NCBI GenBank assembly: GCA_021806645.1
Contig: JAJZQX010000024.1
Location: forward strand, 1-33,803
Origin: Myxococcales bacterium
GTDB lineage: Bacteria > Myxococcota > Myxococcia > Myxococcales > Anaeromyxobacteraceae
Reading direction: 5' to 3'
Length of the DNA stretch: 33,803 nt
Numbering within the stretch: the first letter of the stretch is position 1; the number at the start of each line of letters is the position of its first letter. The notes beneath the pieces are model-generated. The model was not told where the DNA came from. It did no database searches and was given only the letters and a program-made list of their open reading frames with translations. The position numbers and the translations under genes were made by a program. Below, one piece after another: positions 4,597 through 33,803 of this stretch.

Positions 4597-4839
4597 CACC
4601 GTGAGCGCATCGCGGCGGGCCGCCTCCGGCAGATCGCCTGGCCCGACGTTCCGCGCCTCGTCGATGCAGGGCAAGAGGTTGGCGATGCGGGCCTCGCGCA
4701 GGCGCTGGAGCTTGGCGCCCAGGTACTCGGGAGTCCAGAAGCCGACGATCTCGACGAGGGAAAGATCGGGACGCGCAAGCTTCGACCAGAGCATCCCGGC
4801 GAAGGCCTGGCGCATGACCCGGCGCTCCTCGTGGGTCAC
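4597..4839 (-). pseudogene. Chimeric remnant: glycoside hydrolase fragment joined to DUF790 C-terminal fragment
   Basis: One open frame holds pieces of unrelated genes. The first 20 residues, containing RRVMRQAFAGMLWSK, match the segment found in large MGH1/GH63-like glycosidases (usually followed by QFYHYDV). After residue 20 the text changes to LSLVEIVGFWTPEYL and then KLQRLREARIANLLPCIDEARN, typical of the C-terminal part of DUF790 (Bax1-like nuclease) proteins. About 30 further residues are unassigned before the nucleotidyltransferase fragment begins in the same frame. The pieces are far too short to fold as the original enzymes. Family calls are from memory of the motifs; the DUF790 match is the stronger. 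Confidence 0.6.
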
Positions 4840-4871
4840 ATGTGCCTCCTTCGGGTCTTGGACCTCCGGCT

Positions 4872-5072
4872 GGCGGGGCCGTTGCGCGGGCGACGGTGTT
4901 CCTTCGAGGGCTGGGCACCTAGTCCCGGAAGGGCCGGGCCAGCTACCACTACGTGGAGGTCGGCGGGCAGCGGAACGCCGATGCGGCCTGGTACCACGCG
5001 GCGCCCGAGGAAGCGGCCAGCCGCATCGCCGGCTATATCGCCTCCTGGCACGGCGTCATGGTCGAGCGGTAG
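4872..5072 (+). pseudogene. DUF427-family remnant, C-terminal part
   Basis: The frame ending at TAG 5070-5072 reads SRKGRASYHYVEVGGQ, then DAAWYHAAPEEAASRIAGYI and SWHGVMVER. This is the C-terminal half of DUF427 proteins (KGxAxYY, DAAWYYPxP, AAxIxGxVAFW). An in-frame TAG at 4920-4922 and the lack of the N-terminal half show that it is broken; upstream in the same frame only a short GGAVARATVFLRGLGT precedes the stop. It ends 23 nt before the start of egtD. DUF427 has no established enzymatic role that I can state. Confidence 0.65.
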
Positions 5073-5095
5073 CCGGCCAGGACAGGGAGGGTCTC

Positions 5096-6118
5096 ATGGC
5101 GAGCGCACCAGCGGCCATCGCTGTATCCAGGTCGACAGGTCGAGGCGCGGCCAGTGTGCCGGCGACCTCACGGGAGCGCTTCCGTGGTGACGTGCTGGCG
5201 GGGCTGGCGCTGCCATCCCGGGCCATCCCGTCGGTCTGGTTCTACGACGCCTGGGGGAGCCGCCTCTTCGAGCGAATCATGCGCCTCCCCGCCTACTACC
5301 CGACGCGGGTCGAGACCGGCCTCCTGGAGCGCCACTCCGACGCCGTGGTGGCACGGCTCCTGGGTGGGCCATCCTCCGTCGTGGACCTCGGCGCCGGGGA
5401 TGGTACCAAGACGAAGCTGGTCATGGCCGCGGCCCGCCGGCGCGCGCCGACCGCCGCCTACGTCCCCGTCGACGTGTCGGCCACGGCGCTCGAGGCGGCG
5501 GCCGAGCACCTGCGAACCACCTGGCCAGGTCTCGAGGTCCGGCCCGTGCATGGCGACTACGTGGAGGGGTTGGCGCAGGCGTCGCGAACGAGCGGACACG
5601 CGCCCCTGTTGGCGCTCCTGCTCGGCAGCAACATCGGGAACCTGGAGTGGACGGCGGCGGTCGCGCTGCTGCGGTCGCTGCGGCAGGCACTCCGCCTCGG
5701 CGACCACCTGCTGGTTGGCTTCGATCTCCTCAAGTCCGAGGAGGTTCTCCGCGGCGCCTACGACGACCCGGACGGCGTGACGGCCGCGTTCAACCTGAAC
5801 CTGCTCTCCCGCGTCAACCACGAACTGGGCGGCGACTTCGACCTCTCGGCCTTCGAGCACCGGGCCACCTTCGACGCCGGGCGGCCCGCCATGGAGAGCT
5901 GGCTCGTCTCCCGGCGGCGGCAGGTCGTCACCGTGGCAGACCAGCGCTTCGAGTTCCGGGAGGGCGAGGCCATCCAGACCGAGATCTCCTGGAAGTACAC
6001 CGACGGCCAGATCGCGGCGCTGGCCCGGGAGGCGGGCTTCGAGGAGGTGGAGCGCTTCCACGACGGGCGACGCTGGTTCGCCGAAGCGCTCTGGCGGGTC
6101 GGACCGGAGGCGGCGTGA
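5096..6118 (+). CDS. egtD: L-histidine N-alpha-methyltransferase EgtD
   Basis: 340 aa, normal for the family (about 320). It transfers three methyl groups from S-adenosylmethionine to the alpha-amino group of histidine, giving hercynine, the first step of ergothioneine biosynthesis in the cytoplasm. The family N-terminus is clear (SVWFYDAWGSRLFERIMRLP followed by AYYPTRVETGLL), as is the SAM-binding DLGAGDGTKTKLV, LLLGSNIGN and the C-terminal FREGEAIQTEISWKY. The ATG at 5096 has GGGAGG 5 nt upstream. The stop overlaps the GTG of egtB, so the two are translationally coupled. Longer upstream starts in this frame run into the DUF427 remnant and are rejected. Confidence 0.95.
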   Translation: MASAPAAIAVSRSTGRGAASVPATSRERFRGDVLAGLALPSRAIPSVWFYDAWGSRLFERIMRLPAYYPTRVETGLLERHSDAVVARLLGGPSSVVDLGAGDGTKTKLVMAAARRRAPTAAYVPVDVSATALEAAAEHLRTTWPGLEVRPVHGDYVEGLAQASRTSGHAPLLALLLGSNIGNLEWTAAVALLRSLRQALRLGDHLLVGFDLLKSEEVLRGAYDDPDGVTAAFNLNLLSRVNHELGGDFDLSAFEHRATFDAGRPAMESWLVSRRRQVVTVADQRFEFREGEAIQTEISWKYTDGQIAALAREAGFEEVERFHDGRRWFAEALWRVGPEAA

Positions 6119-7353
6119 CGGCGAAGGGGGCTGGCGGCCTGGCTTCACGGTGGAGGGACGTGCGCGCGGCCACCGAGCGGCTCTGCGAGACGCTCGAGCT
6201 GGAAGACTACGTCGTCCAGTCGATGCCGGACGCCAGCCCCGTGAAGTGGCACCTGGCCCACACCAGCTGGTTCTTCGAGACCTTCGTGCTCGCGCCGCAT
6301 GCCCCGAGGTACCGCCCGTTCCGGGAGGGCTGGGACGTCCTCTTCAACTCCTACTACGTGGCAGCGGGACCGCGGCACCCGCGGCCCGAACGCGGGTTGC
6401 TGACCCGACCCACGGTCGCCGAGGTGCGGGCCTACCGGGCCTCGGTCGACACGGCCCTGGGAGCGTTCCTGGCGACTCCCGAGGCGGCGGTGCCCGAGGT
6501 GGCGGCGCTCGTCGAACTCGGACTCCACCACGAGCAGCAGCACCAGGAGCTGCTGCTCACGGACATCCACCACGCCTTCTCGCGCAACCCGCTGGCGCCT
6601 ACCTACCGTCCCAGATCCGCCCCGGCGCCGACGGTCGCGACTCCACTGCGGTGGCGGCAGCACGGTGGAGGCCTGGTGCAGATCGGCCACGAGGGGGCGA
6701 GCTTCGCCTTCGACAACGAGGGGCCGGCTCACCAGGTGTTCCTGCAGCCCTTCGCCGTCGCTTCCCGCCCGGCGACCGTGGGCGAGTACCTGGCCTTCAT
6801 CGAGGACGGCGGCTACCGGCGGGCCGAGCTCTGGCTCTCGGACGGGTTCGCCGCGGCCCAGGCCGGTGGCTGGGTGGCGCCGCTCTACTGGACTCGCAGG
6901 GAAGGGGGTTGGTCGCGCTTCACGCTCCACGGGGAGTGGCCCGTCGATCTCGGTGCGCCGGTGACCCACGTGAGCTTCTACGAGGCAGACGCCTTCGCCA
7001 GGTGGGCCGGATCGCGGCTCACGACCGAGGCCGAGTGGGAGACGGTGGCGTGCTCGTCTCCAGTTGCCGGGCAGTTCGTGGAGGATGGGTGGCTCGAGCC
7101 GCTCGCGACGGATGGCGACGCGCCATTCATGGGTGGCGCCTGGGCCTGGACGTCGAGCCCGTACGTGGCCTACCCGGGCTTCCGGCCCGCCGCCGGTGCG
7201 GTCGGCGAGTACAACGGCAAGTTCATGGTGAACCAGCTCGTCCTGCGCGGCGGTTCCTGCCTCTCGCCGGGGAGCCACCTGCGCCCGAGCTACCGCAACT
7301 TCTTCCCGCCTGGCGCACGCTGGCAGATGACGGGGATCCGCTTGGCGCGGTGA
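6115..7353 (+). CDS. egtB: Hercynine oxygenase EgtB (sulfoxide synthase)
   Basis: 412 aa. This non-heme iron enzyme joins hercynine to a thiol (gamma-glutamylcysteine or cysteine, depending on the type) with oxygen to form the sulfoxide intermediate of ergothioneine. The N-terminal DinB-like domain carries the three iron ligands: His49 in WHLAHTSW and His139/His143 in HHEQQHQE. The C-terminal FGE-sulfatase-like domain (about 180-412) has WVAPLYW, HVSFYEADAFARWAG and the final RGGSCLSPGSHLRPSYRNFF segment. The GTG at 6115 overlaps the egtD stop (GTGA) and has GGAGG just upstream. No egtA, egtC or egtE lies in the window, so the thiol donor cannot be decided from context. Confidence 0.95.
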   Translation: MTAKGAGGLASRWRDVRAATERLCETLELEDYVVQSMPDASPVKWHLAHTSWFFETFVLAPHAPRYRPFREGWDVLFNSYYVAAGPRHPRPERGLLTRPTVAEVRAYRASVDTALGAFLATPEAAVPEVAALVELGLHHEQQHQELLLTDIHHAFSRNPLAPTYRPRSAPAPTVATPLRWRQHGGGLVQIGHEGASFAFDNEGPAHQVFLQPFAVASRPATVGEYLAFIEDGGYRRAELWLSDGFAAAQAGGWVAPLYWTRREGGWSRFTLHGEWPVDLGAPVTHVSFYEADAFARWAGSRLTTEAEWETVACSSPVAGQFVEDGWLEPLATDGDAPFMGGAWAWTSSPYVAYPGFRPAAGAVGEYNGKFMVNQLVLRGGSCLSPGSHLRPSYRNFFPPGARWQMTGIRLAR

Positions 7354-28243: not shown

Positions 28244-28261
28244 CGGTCACGTAAGTGACCG
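28244..28261. promoter_or_regulatory. Palindrome, candidate activator-binding site
   Basis: CGGTCAC (28244-28250) and GTGACCG (28255-28261) are perfect 7-bp arms around GTAA. It lies in the divergent region about 30 nt upstream of the candidate sigma-54 promoter, a reasonable although rather close position for an enhancer-type site. Confidence 0.5.
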
Positions 28262-28282
28262 GAGTTGCCAAGGTCTGCTCGG

Positions 28283-28298
28283 TGGCCCGGCGGATGCT
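28283..28298 (+). promoter_or_regulatory. Candidate sigma-54 promoter of the ice-binding-like gene
   Basis: TGGCCCG-GCGG-ATGCT has the -24 GG and -12 GC separated by exactly 10 nt, close to the consensus TGGCACG-N4-TTGCA. Transcription would start near 28309, about 70 nt before the GTG at 28378. The neighbouring divergent gene encodes a sigma-54 activator. In GC-rich DNA such matches occur by chance, so this is only a candidate. Confidence 0.45.
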
Positions 28299-28377
28299 TC
28301 GTGAGGGGTTCAGGGCACCCCGCTACCGGCGGACCGTGCTTCCCAGGAATCGCACGCAGTCAACGCCAGGAGTTCCA

Positions 28378-30129
28378 GTGAAATCGATATCGAAGCTGTC
28401 CAGGGTCGGAGCCGCACTCGTGCTCCTCTCGCTCGCCGCCTGCGGGAGCTCCACGGACGGGGGCTTGAACCCGCCGGTCGCGCCGACGGTCCTGTCCACC
28501 ACGCCCGTGAGCGGTTCCGCCAATGTCCTCGTCAACGCGCCCATCAGCGCCACCTTCGGCGAGGCGATGGACCCGGCCACCATCACCGCCATCACCTTCA
28601 CGCTGACCTCCGGGACGCCCGCGATCGCCGTCCCGGGCACCGTGACCTACTCCGGCTCGGTGGCGGTGTTCCACCCGACCGCGCCGCTCGCCAACTCCAA
28701 GACCTTCACCGCGACCATCACCACCGGCGCCAGGAACATGGCAGGCACGGCGCTGGCGACCAACCACAGCTGGACCTTCACGACGGTGGCGGCGGTTCCG
28801 CCGGTGGCGCCGACCATCGCCTCCACCACCCCCGCCAGCGGCGAGACCAATGTGCTCGTCAACGGGGTGGTCAGCGTCACCTTCAGCGAGCCGATGGATC
28901 CGACCACGATGACCACGTCCACCTTCGTGCTGACCTCCGGAGCGGCGGTGGTACCGGTCGCCGGCACGGTGACCTGCACCAGCTCGACCGCGGTCTTCTC
29001 GCAGGCCCTTCCCCTCGCCGCTGACACCACCTACACCGCGACCGTCACCACCGGGTCCAGGAGCATGATGGGCGGCGCGCTCGCGGCCAGGCACACCTGG
29101 AGCTTCAGCACCGGGAGCGCCGTGGTGCCCCTCGTCCCGCCGGCGGTGGTCTCCAACCTCCCCCTCGACGGCGCCGGCAACGTCCTCGTCAACGGGGTCG
29201 TCAGCGTCACCTTCAGCCAGGCGATGGACCCGACCACGCTCGACAGCGCCACCTTCACGCTGACCTCCGGTACGCCGGCGGTCGCGGTCGCGGGCATGGT
29301 GACCTACGCCAACTCGAAGGCCGAGTTCATGCCGTCCGCCCACCTCGCCCCCAGCACCCTCTACACCGCGACCATCACCGTCGGGGCGTCGAACGTGGTC
29401 GGCATGCCCCTGGCGGCGAGCTACACCTGGAGCTTCACCACCGGGAGCGCGATGCCGATGGGCAACCCCGTGAACCTGGGGATGGCCGGCGGCTTCGTGA
29501 TCCTGGCCAAGACCGGGATCTCCACGGTGCCGACCTCGGCCATCACCGGTAACCTCGGCCTCAGCCCGGCGGCCGCCAGCTACATCACCGGCTTCTCGCT
29601 GACCGCGGATGCCACCAACGTCTTCTCGACCTCGCCGCAGGTGACCGGGAAGGTCTACGCCTCCGACTACGCGCCTCCCACGCCTTCCAACCTGACCACC
29701 GCGGTCGGCGACATGGAGCTCGCCTTCACCGACGCCGCGGGGCGCGCCCCGGATGTCACCGAGCTGGGCGCCGGGAACATCGGCGGCATGGTCCTTCCCG
29801 CGGGCGTCTACAAGTGGGGCACCGGCCTCCTCGTCCCGACCGACGTCACGCTCAATGGCTCGGCCACGGACGTCTGGATCTTCCAGATCGCCCAGGGGCT
29901 CACCCTGAGCAGCGGCGTGAAGGTCCTGCTGGCCGGTGGCGCGCTGCCGAAGAACGTCTTCTGGCAGGTCGCGGGCCTGGTGGACCTCGGCACCACGGCG
30001 CACGGCGAGGGGGTCATCCTGTCTCAGACGGCGATCACCCTGCGCACCGGCGCGACGGTCAACGGCCGGCTCCTGGCGCAGACGGCGGTCAGCATCGACG
30101 GCAGCACGGTCGTCGAGCCGGCGCCGTAA
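28378..30129 (+). CDS. Lipoprotein with three Ig-like domains and a DUF3494 ice-binding-like domain
   Basis: 583 aa. A signal peptide with lipobox LAAC (residues about 10-22) indicates a lipid-anchored surface protein. Three repeats of about 100 residues follow, each with the Big_5/SbsA-like pattern: STTPxSGxxNVLVN, then SxTFxxxMDPxT, then a closing WxFTT. The C-terminal 190 residues match DUF3494 (VILAKTGISTVPTSAITGNL, GFSLTADATNVF, GVYKWGTGLLVPTDVTLNG, ATVNGRLLAQTAVSID), a right-handed beta-helix fold that includes ice-binding proteins and adhesins. The GTG at 28378 has AGGAG 5 nt upstream. Ig-like stalk plus DUF3494 head suggests adhesion to ice or another surface; which is not decided by sequence. 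Confidence 0.9.
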   Translation: MKSISKLSRVGAALVLLSLAACGSSTDGGLNPPVAPTVLSTTPVSGSANVLVNAPISATFGEAMDPATITAITFTLTSGTPAIAVPGTVTYSGSVAVFHPTAPLANSKTFTATITTGARNMAGTALATNHSWTFTTVAAVPPVAPTIASTTPASGETNVLVNGVVSVTFSEPMDPTTMTTSTFVLTSGAAVVPVAGTVTCTSSTAVFSQALPLAADTTYTATVTTGSRSMMGGALAARHTWSFSTGSAVVPLVPPAVVSNLPLDGAGNVLVNGVVSVTFSQAMDPTTLDSATFTLTSGTPAVAVAGMVTYANSKAEFMPSAHLAPSTLYTATITVGASNVVGMPLAASYTWSFTTGSAMPMGNPVNLGMAGGFVILAKTGISTVPTSAITGNLGLSPAAASYITGFSLTADATNVFSTSPQVTGKVYASDYAPPTPSNLTTAVGDMELAFTDAAGRAPDVTELGAGNIGGMVLPAGVYKWGTGLLVPTDVTLNGSATDVWIFQIAQGLTLSSGVKVLLAGGALPKNVFWQVAGLVDLGTTAHGEGVILSQTAITLRTGATVNGRLLAQTAVSIDGSTVVEPAP

Positions 30130-30238: not shown

Positions 30239-30745
30239 TCAGGAAGCCTTTGAGGTGGGGCTCCGCCACGCCGGCCGGGCCGGCGCCGGAGGGGCCGCGG
30301 CGGCGGGTCCCGTCGCCGCGGGCGACGTTCCCTGCTGGCGCGCTCCAGTCCTGGCGGGCGGGTCGTTGGCCAGGCCTATGACGATGCCGGCGTGGCGCTG
30401 GACGGCCTCGTACAGCTCGTTCGGCCCGATGGGCTTGAGGAGGACGGCGCGGACCCCCGCCTCCCGGCACTGGCGCAGCGAGTCCTTGTCGCGGGTGCTG
30501 GTGAGGATGATGACCGGGGTCTCCCGGAGCGTCGGGTCGGCGGCGAGCCCGCGGCACAACCCCGGGCCGTCGAGTCGCGGCATGCGCAGGTCGCACAGGA
30601 CCAGGTCGGGCCGCTCCACCCGGGCGATGGTCAGCGCCTCGACGCCGTCCCGGACGTCGAGCACCCGCACGTCCTTGTCGATGAGGTAGACCTTGATCAG
30701 CTCCAGGGTCACCTTGCTGTCGCTCGCCAGAAGGATGGTCTTCAT
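30239..30745 (-). CDS. Single-domain response regulator with Ala/Pro tail
   Basis: 168 aa. A receiver domain (1-120) with phospho-acceptor Asp52 in LVLCDLRMPRLDG, Thr in IILTSTRD and Lys in LLKPIGPNEL. The acidic pocket has a single Asp9 (LLASDSK) in place of the usual acidic pair. No output domain follows; instead there is a disordered Ala/Pro/Arg-rich tail of about 45 residues. The ATG at 30745 has a GGAGGC about 4 nt upstream. It stands alone between convergent and codirectional genes; stand-alone receivers often act by protein contact, for example in motility or phosphorelays. The partner kinase is not obvious from context. Confidence 0.85.
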   Translation of the reverse strand: MKTILLASDSKVTLELIKVYLIDKDVRVLDVRDGVEALTIARVERPDLVLCDLRMPRLDGPGLCRGLAADPTLRETPVIILTSTRDKDSLRQCREAGVRAVLLKPIGPNELYEAVQRHAGIVIGLANDPPARTGARQQGTSPAATGPAAAAPPAPARPAWRSPTSKAS

Positions 30746-30938
30746 GTGGCCTCCCAGGTGCCGGACGGGCCGGTTGGGTTCGCGATGACGCCGGCCAGCT
30801 CACGGGGGCTCGGTCACGGAGGCTGACGATCCTGGCGGCCGGATGTGACCGGACGCGCCACCACCGTCGCGGGATGGCCGGCCCACGACGGCACCGAGGC
30901 CGGTCCGCGGCGTGCCGCGGCGCGTCAACCAGCTCTCT

Positions 30939-31301
30939 TCAGGCCAGGGCCGACACGGCCACGAAGAGATCGACCGCGTCGGGCCGCTCCAGCGGCAGGG
31001 CCACGCGGCGATTGGGGCCGAGGACCGCCAGGCGCCGGTCTCCGGCCAGCCAGTAGGCCCGTTGCGTGCCCGAAAGCTCCGTGCGATCGCGGACGCGAAC
31101 CACCCGGACCGCCTCGAAGCCGGGGTCGAGCGCCAGCCCCCGGCAGCGGAACTCGGCCTGGTCCGAGTCCGGCCCGGCGCCGATCACCAGGACGATGACG
31201 GTGTCCTTCTCGGCCAGGGCGGTGGCCAGCCCCGCTGGGACCGCCGGCTCCGCCGGTTGCCACGCCCGCGCCATCGGCTGCCACGCCTGCGCCGTCATCA
31301 T
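30939..31301 (-). CDS. Unknown 120-aa protein coupled to the ATP-grasp ligase
   Basis: Not assigned to a family. The N-terminus has a short repeat (AWQPMARAWQPAEPAVPAG), then an alternating strand/helix pattern: a hydrophobic strand DTVIVLVIGAG, VRVVRVRDRTELSG, RLAVLGPNRRVALPL and a final helix AVDLFVAVSALA. No catalytic motif is visible. The ATG at 31301 overlaps the ligase stop (ATGA) and has GGAGG upstream, so both proteins are translated together. This coupling argues for a role in the same peptide pathway, such as substrate recognition or a partner of the ligase, but the repeat-bearing N-terminus could also itself be a substrate. These are guesses from context. Confidence 0.7.
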   Translation of the reverse strand: MMTAQAWQPMARAWQPAEPAVPAGLATALAEKDTVIVLVIGAGPDSDQAEFRCRGLALDPGFEAVRVVRVRDRTELSGTQRAYWLAGDRRLAVLGPNRRVALPLERPDAVDLFVAVSALA

Positions 31302-32308
31302 GCTTGCCTCCGTGTCTCGTTCACCACCCGCGGGGCGGGGCGCCGCACTGGCGCGCTGCCCCGTGCCTCGACCGCCGCCTCGACCAGCGCCTCGGCCACG
31401 GCCCGGGTGATGGGCTGGCCGGTCCGGTCCTCGAGGAAGAGCCACTGGCCGGCCGGGTTGGCCTCCAGGAAGAGGTGCTGCCCCTCGTCGGTCCTGCGGA
31501 AGTCGAGGGCGGCGTAGCGCAGGCCGAGGTTGAGCAGCAGCGACCGGATGCCGCTGGCGACCTCCGCCGGCAGCTCGCAGGGCGCCACTCGCGCCTGGGC
31601 GTAGGCGGGGCGGAAGTCCCGCGGCGAGCTGGTGTCACGGACGTCGATGGCAGTCGCGAAGAGCCGGCCGCCGGCCGCGGTGACGCGGACGTCGGTGCCC
31701 GGCACGTAGGCCTGGAGGATGGCCGGGGCGAGCCGCAGGTCGTCGAGCCGGTCCCGGTCGCCCTCGGTCACCAGGCGGGTCGGCCGCCAGCTCTCCTCGG
31801 TGGGCCGGAGCGGCTTCTGGATCACCGGGCGATCGCCCAGCTCCTCCAGGAAGGCCCGAGCCTCGTCCGGCGCGCAGGTGACGAGCGTGGGCGGCACCGC
31901 CAGCCCGGCCACCGCGGCCGCCGCCAGCTGGGTCGGCTTGTGGCCGGCCCGCTCGTCGCGCCAGGGGTCGTTCATCCAGCTGGCGCGGAGCGAGCCCCAG
32001 ACGCCGGAGAGCCCGGCGTGGACCTGGGCGGTGGCGTAGGCGGTGAACGGCGGGGAGAGCGCCTCGTCCACCACGTAGGGGCGAGGGCGGCGCCACCAGA
32101 CCGCCTCGATCTCGGCGGCGTCGAGCCGGGAGCCGCCCACGCTGGTGAAGCTGGCGCCGTTCACGCTCCGGCCGGCCGAGAAGCTGAACTGCACCTGCCG
32201 CGGCAGGGTGGCGAGATCGAGCAGCTCGCAGCGCCAGCCCTGGCGCACCACCGCCTCCATGACCGGGGCGGTGTGCGCGTCCTCCGGGTGGCTGACGACC
32301 AGGATCAT
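31298..32308 (-). CDS. MvdD-like ATP-grasp ligase (RiPP/graspetide maturase)
   Basis: 336 aa, the size of MvdC/MvdD-type ligases. Family features in order: N-terminal strand ILVVSHPEDAHT, the EAVWWRRPRPYVVDEALSPP motif (WWRRP), NDPWRDERAGHKPTQLAAAA with GLAVPPTLVT, the ATP-binding strand PVIQKPLRPTEE, ILQAYVPGTDVRVTAAGG, and the metal/ATP site YAALDFRR with FLEANPAGQWLFLE. Such enzymes use ATP to join side-chain carboxylates of a precursor peptide to hydroxyl or amino groups, making lactone or lactam rings. The ATG at 32308 has GGAGGGG. It lies 79 nt after a candidate precursor gene and overlaps the downstream gene. There is no second ligase, transporter or protease nearby. Confidence 0.88.
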   Translation of the reverse strand: MILVVSHPEDAHTAPVMEAVVRQGWRCELLDLATLPRQVQFSFSAGRSVNGASFTSVGGSRLDAAEIEAVWWRRPRPYVVDEALSPPFTAYATAQVHAGLSGVWGSLRASWMNDPWRDERAGHKPTQLAAAAVAGLAVPPTLVTCAPDEARAFLEELGDRPVIQKPLRPTEESWRPTRLVTEGDRDRLDDLRLAPAILQAYVPGTDVRVTAAGGRLFATAIDVRDTSSPRDFRPAYAQARVAPCELPAEVASGIRSLLLNLGLRYAALDFRRTDEGQHLFLEANPAGQWLFLEDRTGQPITRAVAEALVEAAVEARGSAPVRRPAPRVVNETRRQA

Positions 32309-32338
32309 GGCTGGGCCCCTCCGGGCGCGGTGGACCGT

Positions 32339-32358
32339 CCGGCCGCGAGGGCGGCCGG
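32339..32358 (-). promoter_or_regulatory. Intercistronic GC hairpin between precursor and ligase genes
   Basis: CCGGCCGC (32339-32346) and GCGGCCGG (32351-32358) form a perfect 8-bp stem with a 4-nt loop, in the 79-nt gap between the precursor stop and the ligase start. No T-run follows. RiPP operons often carry such a structure so that the precursor is made in excess of its enzyme; that role is inferred. Confidence 0.55.
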
Positions 32359-32387
32359 CGGAGACCGCCAGCTGGAGCCGGCCACCT

Positions 32388-32579
32388 TCACATCCGGTCC
32401 TGCGGGCCGGCCATCGGCAGGTCGCAACCCCAGGGCTGGACGCCGCCGAGATCGTCGGGCGCGCCGTTGCCCGGGTTGCCCTGCGGGGCCTGGACGGTCT
32501 GGGGGTAGATGCTGCCCGGTGCCGTGAAGATCGACCAGGGGTAGATGTCGCTGGTGTTGTCCGTGCCTCGGCTCGCCAT
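32388..32579 (-). CDS. Candidate RiPP precursor peptide (63 aa)
   Basis: A 63-aa peptide with AAGGA 8 nt before its ATG, directly upstream of the ATP-grasp ligase gene. The N-terminal third is rich in Thr/Ser (T6, T9, S10, S16, T19, S23, T28) and has IYP twice (DIYPWS and SIYPQT). The C-terminal half is Gly/Pro-rich with aspartates D42, D43, D53 and D61, a single Cys52 and PWGCDLP. There is no Lys and no Glu, so an ATP-grasp ligase could only form esters between Ser/Thr and Asp. No microviridin leader (PFFARFL) or TxKYPSD core is present. The leader/core border is unknown. A longer frame upstream to 32711 is not supported. Confidence 0.65.
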   Translation of the reverse strand: MASRGTDNTSDIYPWSIFTAPGSIYPQTVQAPQGNPGNGAPDDLGGVQPWGCDLPMAGPQDRM

Positions 32580-32629: not shown

Positions 32630-32694
32630 GGGTTCCTCCCGGCAGCGAGATGGACGATCCAGCGCCCGCGATGTGACTTGGCGCGGAGGAACCC
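32630..32694. promoter_or_regulatory. 10-bp inverted repeat upstream of the precursor gene
   Basis: GGGTTCCTCC (32630-32639) and GGAGGAACCC (32685-32694) are perfect 10-bp arms 45 nt apart, in the 142-nt gap between the TPR-protein stop and the precursor start. It may be an operator for the RiPP operon, or a structure at the 3' end of the upstream mRNA. No clear -35/-10 pair was found nearby. Confidence 0.45.
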
Positions 32695-32721: not shown

Positions 32722-33803
32722 CTAAGGCTTCGGCTTCGCGGCCGGCGCGGGGGCCGCGCCGCGGCTGCCGAGCCGGTCGCGCAGGGCGCGCGCCTCGGTG
32801 AGGAGGCGCAGGTCCGGATCGGCGCGACGCAGCACGACGAGCAGCCGCTCGGCGCCGGCCCGCGCCGCGTCGGGCTGGCCGAGCCGCTCCCGCGCCCGCG
32901 CTTCCAGCAGCAGCGAGCGGGACCAGGCCCAGCCGCGCCAGACCCCGCGTGGCCACATCCGGTGGAACCGCTCCACCGCCGCCACCACCTCGGAGGGCTC
33001 GCCCCCGCCGGCGGTCAGCTCGGCGATGAGGTAGGCCGGCGCGATGGCCACGTTGGGCCAGGGGTCGCGCTGCTCCAGCAGGGCGAGCGAGGCGGCGGCG
33101 GCGGCCCGCTCCCCCCGGCGCCAGGCCACCAGGGCCGCCACCTCCTGCGCCTCGGTCGAGGCCGGGTCGAGCGCGGCGGCCAGCCGCTGGGCCAGGGCCG
33201 GATCGCCGACCAGCGCCAGCAGCACCAGCGCGTCGCCGGAGGCCTCGGGCTGCAGCTTGACCACCGCGGTGGCCGCATCCCCGAGCAGCCCGGCCTCGCC
33301 GGTCCCGGCGGCGAGCAGGCCACGGACGCGGGGCAGATCGCCTGGGCGCATTCCATCGACGGCGCCCGGCAGGCTCCGCAAGAGCCGCCAGGCCTCGGCG
33401 AAGCGCCCCTGCGCCCCCAGGATGTCGAGGAGCCGGAACCGGTTCGCCAGCTCGCGCGGGCTCATGGCGATGGCCTGGCGGGTGAGCCGCTCGGCCTCGT
33501 CGAAGGCGCCGGCGGCGACCAGTGCGGCGGTCAGGTCGTTGCGCGCCGCCGGGGTGGCCTCGGCGGCGGCGAGCTGCCGGGCCAGGGCGACGGCCGCGGG
33601 CGGATCGCCGAGCCAGACCAGCGCCCGGATGGCGAGCCGGCGGGCGGCCGGCGTGGCCGACGGGGCGCCGAGGCGCGCCGCCAGCTCGCGCAGCTCCCCC
33701 ATGCGGCCGGTGATGGCGAGGCACTGGGCCAGGTGGTCGAGCGGCCACTCGGCGTCCGGCTCGAGCCCCAGCACCGCCTGGAAGTAGGGGGTGGCGCCGG
33801 CCC
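32722..33803 (-). CDS. TPR-like repeat protein, 5' end outside the window
   Basis: The frame is open to the window edge (at least 360 codons) and no start with a ribosome site is seen, so the N-terminus is missing. The visible part is helical, Ala/Leu/Arg-rich, with TPR-like units such as YFQAVLGLEPDAEWPLDHLA, AGAFDEAERLTRQAIAMSP and QGRFAEAWRLLRSLPGA. The C-terminus is an Ala/Pro/Lys tail. No catalytic domain is in view; the missing part could be a kinase or transmembrane domain, as often in Myxococcota. It precedes the RiPP precursor gene by 142 nt on the same strand, so a link to that operon is possible but unproven. Confidence 0.75.
   Translation of the reverse strand, partial: AGATPYFQAVLGLEPDAEWPLDHLAQCLAITGRMGELRELAARLGAPSATPAARRLAIRALVWLGDPPAAVALARQLAAAEATPAARNDLTAALVAAGAFDEAERLTRQAIAMSPRELANRFRLLDILGAQGRFAEAWRLLRSLPGAVDGMRPGDLPRVRGLLAAGTGEAGLLGDAATAVVKLQPEASGDALVLLALVGDPALAQRLAAALDPASTEAQEVAALVAWRRGERAAAAASLALLEQRDPWPNVAIAPAYLIAELTAGGGEPSEVVAAVERFHRMWPRGVWRGWAWSRSLLLEARARERLGQPDAARAGAERLLVVLRRADPDLRLLTEARALRDRLGSRGAAPAPAAKPKP

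Follow-up and report, generated by a model that had tools for sequence, protein, structure and literature searches.

An Anaeromyxobacter-family graspetide-type locus with a putative core-first precursor, and related ligases that may staple the tails of whole proteins

The layout described for known graspetides is an N-terminal leader followed by a C-terminal core. The usual order of the linked residues is nucleophile before acid (PMC12291112). For the graspimiditides (fuscimiditide, ThfA/ThfB), the tetrapeptide RPFG has been put forward as the key to recognition by ThfB; natural ThfA has its leader before the core, and the leader still works when moved to the C-terminus, an engineering step reported in 2026 (PMC13003496). 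No mention of a natural graspetide with the core first (a 'follower' graspetide) was found in the literature searched. Corallotide, a graspetide of group 15 with a TIGR04187-type synthetase in a myxobacterium, has a large precursor in which isopeptide sites of the form Lys-x3-Asp recur and the modified repeats follow an N-terminal region, and it has oxygenase and beta-lactamase partners (PMC13097080).

The locus analysed here lies in a window of 33,803 nt, the whole stretch of DNA under analysis, which is one complete contig (C11) of a Myxococcales genome of the Anaeromyxobacteraceae (assembly GCA_021806645.1; 4.14 Mb, 33 contigs, 99 % complete). It has in common with the graspetide synthetases (MdnB/MdnC, AMdnB, PruB, CdnC and PsnB; TIGR04187/04184/04185, PF21068) the ligase fold, the pre-ATP-grasp domain, the catalytic positions and an adjacent small peptide gene. 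However, its ligase scores below every NCBIfam curated cut-off and falls in a separate clade, its operon holds a kinase-TPR gene and a sigma factor gene, and its peptide is without a PFFARFL-type leader. A short motif of RPFG type is found as in the graspimiditides, and the tolerated engineered core N-terminal of that motif is comparable to the layout at the window, where, in contrast to natural ThfA, the motif appears behind the core (PMC13003496); no PIMT-type methyltransferase gene was noticed near the locus. Corallotide is comparable in its large, repeat-bearing precursor, its synthetase type and its myxobacterial host, whereas the oxygenase and beta-lactamase partners are absent at the window (PMC13097080). 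A signalling enzyme fused to further domains beside a peptide-modification system is also seen in the TOMM kinase/cyclase (TIGR03903) and mod_pep_cyc (TIGR04510) proteins, but the kinase-TPR protein of the window scored far below the curated cut-offs of both models (E 7e-33, 114 bits against 706; E 4e-27, 95 bits against 400). On the evidence below, our verdict is that the locus represents a real, selected and regulated graspetide-type system, belonging to a clade with an apparently unusual precursor layout.

A sequence-only reading of the window had described three consecutive minus-strand genes, and all three were confirmed in position and strand. The first encodes a candidate precursor peptide of 63 aa (P0001; 32388..32579), with an ATG start and AAAGGA upstream. 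The second encodes an ATP-grasp ligase of graspetide-synthetase type (31298..32308; 336 aa), with an ATG start and a strong Shine-Dalgarno sequence (GGAGGGG), and the third a 120-aa protein to which no function was assigned (30939..31301). The third gene is translationally coupled to the ligase gene, its ATGATG overlapping the ligase stop codon, and its product is 60 % identical to an ortholog in G002, another species of the same genus. Third-position G+C was similar to that of neighbouring genes (0.92, 0.96 and 0.92 for peptide, ligase and 120-aa ORF, respectively). Neither the peptide nor the 120-aa protein matched a Pfam or NCBIfam family. The model of the 120-aa protein had a topology vaguely like thioredoxin or KaiB, but this likeness was not relied on because mean pLDDT was 60 and comparison with PDB folds gave nothing significant.

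The motifs WWRRP and NPAGQWLFLE, by which the ligase had been recognized, are present at residues 71–75 and 284–293. The description of the enzyme as an MvdD-like graspetide ligase was upheld as to its grouping with the graspetide macrocyclases but not as to the subgroup, since the ligase scored below the equivalog cut-offs of MvdC (161 bits against 425) and MvdD (128 bits against 475) and falls in a different clade. The MvdD pre-ATP-grasp domain (PF21068) was detected at 41.4 bits (gathering cut-off 27), and the best NCBIfam model was TIGR04187 (GRASP_SAV_5884; 237 bits, E 2e-70), below its curated cut-off of 350. A profile of 13 family ligases, in which W71, W72, R74, K124, K165, D269, E282 and N284 are invariant, matched AMdnB, MdnB, PruB, MdnC, CdnC and PsnB in the PDB at E-values of about 1e-65 to 1e-36, while the match to RimK was far weaker (E 3e-14). 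A fold search with the AlphaFold model (pLDDT 88.8) gave the same ranking (AMdnB 2e-27, RimK 1e-14). By sequence and model, the ligase is a complete enzyme of graspetide-synthetase type, with catalysis predicted. If the enzyme were RimK-like, or another amino-acid ligase by which a protein terminus is extended, and the peptide were unrelated to it, the ATP-grasp fold would likewise be shared, and RimK is indeed the next structural neighbour. However, the ligase carries the MvdD pre-ATP-grasp domain, adjoins a conserved peptide, and joins the graspetide macrocyclases and neither RimK nor glutathione synthetase; this alternative is highly improbable and was rejected, as graspetide synthetases match far better by both profile and fold. 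A scan of viral contigs for the ligase returned one distant ligase only.

The description of the operon as compact did not hold. The 102 bp that end the window (33702..33803) recur without a difference as the first bases of contig C23, which in the correct orientation carries a sigma factor gene followed by the kinase domain of a Ser/Thr kinase-TPR gene (79 and 78 % identical, respectively, to the sister species G002). The C-terminal TPR part of this gene lies in the window (32722..33803, minus strand), where it is cut by the contig end, and is 66 % identical to the 971-aa kinase-TPR protein of G002. The operon therefore reads sigma factor, kinase-TPR protein, 63-aa peptide, ligase and 120-aa protein, and is followed by the gene for a receiver-domain response regulator. 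Gene order in G002 is identical, split over two contigs inside the ligase gene. The sigma gene product scored above the cut-off of the ECF sigma-70 model (TIGR02937). No export or protease gene was found linked to the locus. A sigma and kinase-TPR pair of the same kind lies elsewhere in the genome (G000:C8, 20000–34000; L180) with no ATP-grasp gene nearby, and the regulatory pair therefore also occurs alone.

A promoter-like motif, GTCACA-N15-CGTC, with the layout of an ECF −35/−10 pair, has two matches in the window, both on the minus strand and both at the same sites in G002: one upstream of the peptide gene (32653..32677) and one (30825..30849) upstream of the gene for the response regulator, a single receiver domain (30239..30745, minus strand; PF00072, 82 bits) with a syntenic ortholog in G002. 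The stricter pattern GTCACAT-N13-TCGTC was found at exactly two places in the G002 genome, before the same two genes, and at six in the window genome. There were no matches in two congeners in which no ligase was found (G001 and G003, each about 79 % complete), and a reversed pattern used as a control gave zero matches. This co-occurrence suggests that the linked sigma factor pairs with the GTCACA-N15-CGTC promoter, and the response regulator is a probable member of the same regulon as the peptide. The four further sites in the window genome, which count against this pairing, are at G000:C3:911-935, C18:384-408, C29:194939-194963 and C20:48807-48831; three of them precede ORFs that by eye resemble Ig-like surface proteins, two of these being near-identical copies at contig ends, with an ATG about 8 nt after CGTC.

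The peptide had been called an unfamiliar precursor. This stands in so far as it belongs to no Pfam or NCBIfam family, but relatives do emerge through short patterns (Ser/Thr-x4-Asp and P[FWL]G) rather than through alignments. In a sequence search of 60 genomes only the G002 peptide was a credible relative, with the others near chance level. That ortholog aligns without gaps over 63 aa and is likewise located between the kinase-TPR and ligase genes. The two sequences have in common MA.RG.....D.Y.WSI.TAP.SIYP, then 22 positions without identity, and then PWGCD.....PQD. Across the full length dN/dS was about 1 (0.66/0.67), since variable and conserved blocks cancel each other, and block-wise identity was used instead. 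Residues 11–26 are identical at 12 of 16 positions and residues 48–63 at eight of 16, while residues 27–47 have zero identity and no conserved Ser/Thr position. Block 11–26 is kept as protein, because five of its codons differ only synonymously. An ungapped ortholog in the same place with conserved blocks argues against a chance ORF, and this comparison indicates that the peptide is under selection.

A candidate core, Thr6-x4-Asp11 (TDNTSD; SYWVDD in the ortholog), lies at 32547..32564 on the minus strand, with Ser6 taking the place of Thr6 in G002. The chance of such an i,i+5 pair in the window peptide taken alone is 0.37, and the evidence for it is family-wide, coming from enrichment in small ORFs and protein tails. 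Behind the candidate core are two candidate recognition elements, also on the minus strand. The first is Y-x-W-S-I-x-T-A-P-x-S (residues 13–23; 32511..32543), which is conserved in the ortholog and by eye resembles the PFxL(A/S)TPHHS motif of the large-protein tails described below. Its residues 13–21 (YPWSIFTAP, YGWSILTAP in the ortholog) are a partial fit to the Phhx(1,2)h leader motif (Makarova et al. 2022; PMC8939145), and the statistically supported pair precedes them. The second is QPWGCD (residues 48–53; 32421..32438), of RPFG type. WSIxTAPxS and PWG are the only parts of the peptide that resemble PFxL(A/S)TPHH, a resemblance without profile support, and the peptide ends 12 residues past PWG, with no helical C-terminal segment after the motif. 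Profile–profile comparison of the peptide with the tails and the other small ORFs gave no support, leaving short patterns as the only link, and for this reason no homology between them is claimed.

A core-first order, with recognition last, is the layout favoured for the window peptide. The ordinary graspetide topology would instead make residues 1–26 (YxWSIxTAPxSIYP) an N-terminal leader, with a core behind it using the acids Asp42/43, Asp53 or Asp61. Block 11–26 is the best conserved part of the peptide, both orthologs have D or E at positions 42, 43, 53 and 61, and all characterised graspetides found in the literature searched have N-terminal leaders. However, few conserved nucleophiles lie behind the block, residues 27–47 retaining neither identity nor a Ser/Thr position, and the precursors of the clade have their repeats before the PFxL motif. 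The ordinary arrangement is therefore considered unlikely, though less so than the other alternatives weighed here. Other pairings are possible, of Ser16, Thr19 or Ser23 with Asp42/43 or Asp53, given the conservation of block 11–26 and the [DE][DE] at 42–43.

The window ligase belongs to the family found in Anaeromyxobacter, the genus named in several of the records; cultured Anaeromyxobacter (A. oryzae, strain PSR-1) also have a family locus. A kinase-TPR gene (about 1000 aa) precedes the ligase in all 14 loci with readable upstream sequence (L030, L032-L041, L044, G002 and the window), and nine of these have a sigma-like gene either before the kinase or after the ligase. Outside the family, no kinase-TPR partner was found beside the ligases, only unrelated weak matches. 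Ligase homologues without an adjacent peptide would have spoken against the precursor, but none was found in the family: wherever a locus was complete, a small ORF lay between kinase-TPR and ligase, with wildly different sequences from locus to locus. In the ligase subclade of the window (SH-aLRT 95), P[FWL]G is present in all seven small ORFs (QPWG, LPWG, RPLG, VPFG, RPFG twice and RPWG; single-sequence chance 0.01–0.19) and is followed in four of them by an apparent helical hairpin. The pattern [TS]x4D occurs in 10 of 11 non-redundant family small ORFs (expected 5.0, P=0.0003), with no clear excess at the other Ser/Thr–Asp spacings from 2 to 10. At L040 the C-terminal end of the small ORF is VPFALATPHH, which is the motif seen in the large-protein tails. 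The window genome also holds a second, paralogous system (G000:C1:21331-22302; L030), in which the ligase (44 % identical) is accompanied by a separate kinase-TPR gene, by a small ORF of 123 aa where both TIKSKD and QRPLG occur, and by a sigma gene on the downstream side. Small ORFs upstream of the ligase at L036, L038 and L041 have long Lys/Ala/Arg-rich tails like those of histone H1, and Lys-rich starts are also seen in the astacin-type precursors L066 and L067.

At L036, L038 and L039 a PF[LV]LA motif with its helical part forms a separate ORF directly before the ligase, beside a separate peptide ORF. This arrangement would suit a different explanation, in which the ligase modifies another protein, such as the kinase-TPR or 120-aa protein, and the small ORF is a partner or activator that brings the recognition motif in trans; graspetides that depend on a partner protein are known (PMC13097080). 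However, the Ser/Thr-x4-Asp pair lies within the small ORFs themselves, and no tail of the peptidase type was noticed in the sequence of the kinase-TPR C-terminus. Modification in trans is thus more doubtful still than the ordinary topology.

The family alignment was used to scan 84,980 species genomes for a wider set, and 80 ligases were fetched. In a tree of 97 ligases, a clade of 59 that includes the window family was recovered with an SH-aLRT of 98, in a quick reconstruction without bootstraps in which the window family itself was supported at only 64. A split (97) separates this clade from ligases with small, leader-first precursors, in which PFAFRFL or PFLLHYLE marks the leader and an acid-rich core lies behind it. 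It includes 38 large-tail precursors: outside the family, most close ligases follow an ORF of about 320–990 aa (ORF starts being mechanical). These ORFs are tripartite, combining a folded enzyme and a stretch of low complexity with a C-terminal part, which opens with PF[VIA]L[AS]TPHH or a variant about 50–95 residues from the end and continues into a helical C-terminus. The enzymes of 39 tailed proteins are from unrelated families (Astacin 20, Trypsin_2 11, S8 subtilase 3, M43 3, tyrosinase 1). Their loci lie among L050-L103, for example L066:4688-6001 (from Streptomyces), L059:4685-6001 and L083:251-1894.

Over the 130 residues leading up to the PFxL motif, Thr-to-Asp pairs showed a strong excess at spacing 5, numbering 127 where 39 were expected (z 16), and a depletion at spacings 2–4, while Lys-to-Asp pairs were in excess at spacings 3–5 with a peak at 5 (z 22–25). 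The enzyme domains of these proteins had no such excess at these spacings. At least three [TSK]x4[DE] units were present in 39 of 39 tails and in six of 39 domain controls, with TPLAQD, KEVRKD and KERIPE as typical units. Because the i,i+5 spacing had been picked by eye in the small ORFs before it was tested there, the tails, a separate set in which it was then found, are the fairer and independent evidence. Core first and recognition last is apparently the rule in the ligase clade, as read from these sequences, and is clearest in the tailed proteins, which are probably the actual substrates of the L050-L103 ligases.

Peptidase-rich ATP-grasp loci of this kind have a counterpart in the branches numbered 7 and 8 by Makarova et al. 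(2022), who described them as rich in peptidases of unrelated families and without a predictable precursor, and who proposed that the peptidases supply the peptides (PMC8939145). We infer that these branches and L050-L103 are the same clade. The tail patterns suggest that the peptidase itself may be the precursor and not a supplier of peptides. A search of the open-access literature for ATP-grasp together with astacin gave nothing beyond nematode effectors. Iyer et al. are said to have discussed, in 2009, ATP-grasp genes beside peptidases. Within the open-access literature, the wider claim that tailed peptidases are substrates is likely to be new.

For the window locus we favour, as fairly probable, a graspetide-like Thr–Asp staple with its core in front and recognition behind, under ECF-sigma and kinase control; crosslink and recognition site are deduced from sequence patterns. 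The layout is chemically allowed, since the engineered follower works for ThfB (PMC13003496). The ligase would bind a short element in the C-terminal part of the peptide, WSIFTAPGS and/or QPWGCD, and would activate an N-terminal Asp, for which Asp11 is the best candidate, by phosphorylating its side-chain carboxylate to an acyl phosphate. Attack by a Thr hydroxyl (best candidate Thr6) would then join the two side chains as an ester and close a ring of six residues, with the loss of one water. The sigma factor would recognize GTCACA-N15-CGTC in front of the peptide and response-regulator genes, and its input would come from the membrane kinase-TPR protein. As no export or protease gene is linked, our guess is that the peptide is a signal or modulator acting with the kinase. 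The broader proposal is that a widespread ligase branch staples the tails of whole proteins, mostly peptidases, through a tag behind the core, and was re-wired to a short peptide under kinase and sigma control in Anaeromyxobacter relatives; we regard this as evenly balanced. If true, it would give a natural clade in which the described order of leader and core is reversed, with natural follower graspetides that serve protein stapling rather than small-peptide natural products, and ready-made tag-and-staple enzymes for whole proteins. It would also account for the precursors that could not be predicted in the ATP-grasp branches rich in peptidases and make that puzzle testable. The window locus brings along a sigma factor, a kinase and a pair of promoters, and is a compact case in which regulation and chemistry can be tested together.

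Two other features of the window were observed. One is the gene pair usual for ergothioneine synthesis, which adjoin each other on the plus strand at 4601-7353 and encode a histidine-specific methyltransferase (PF10017) and a DinB/FGE-sulfatase protein. The other is a plus-strand gene at 28255-30129, in whose product three Big_5 domains occur together with an Ice_binding domain (PF11999).
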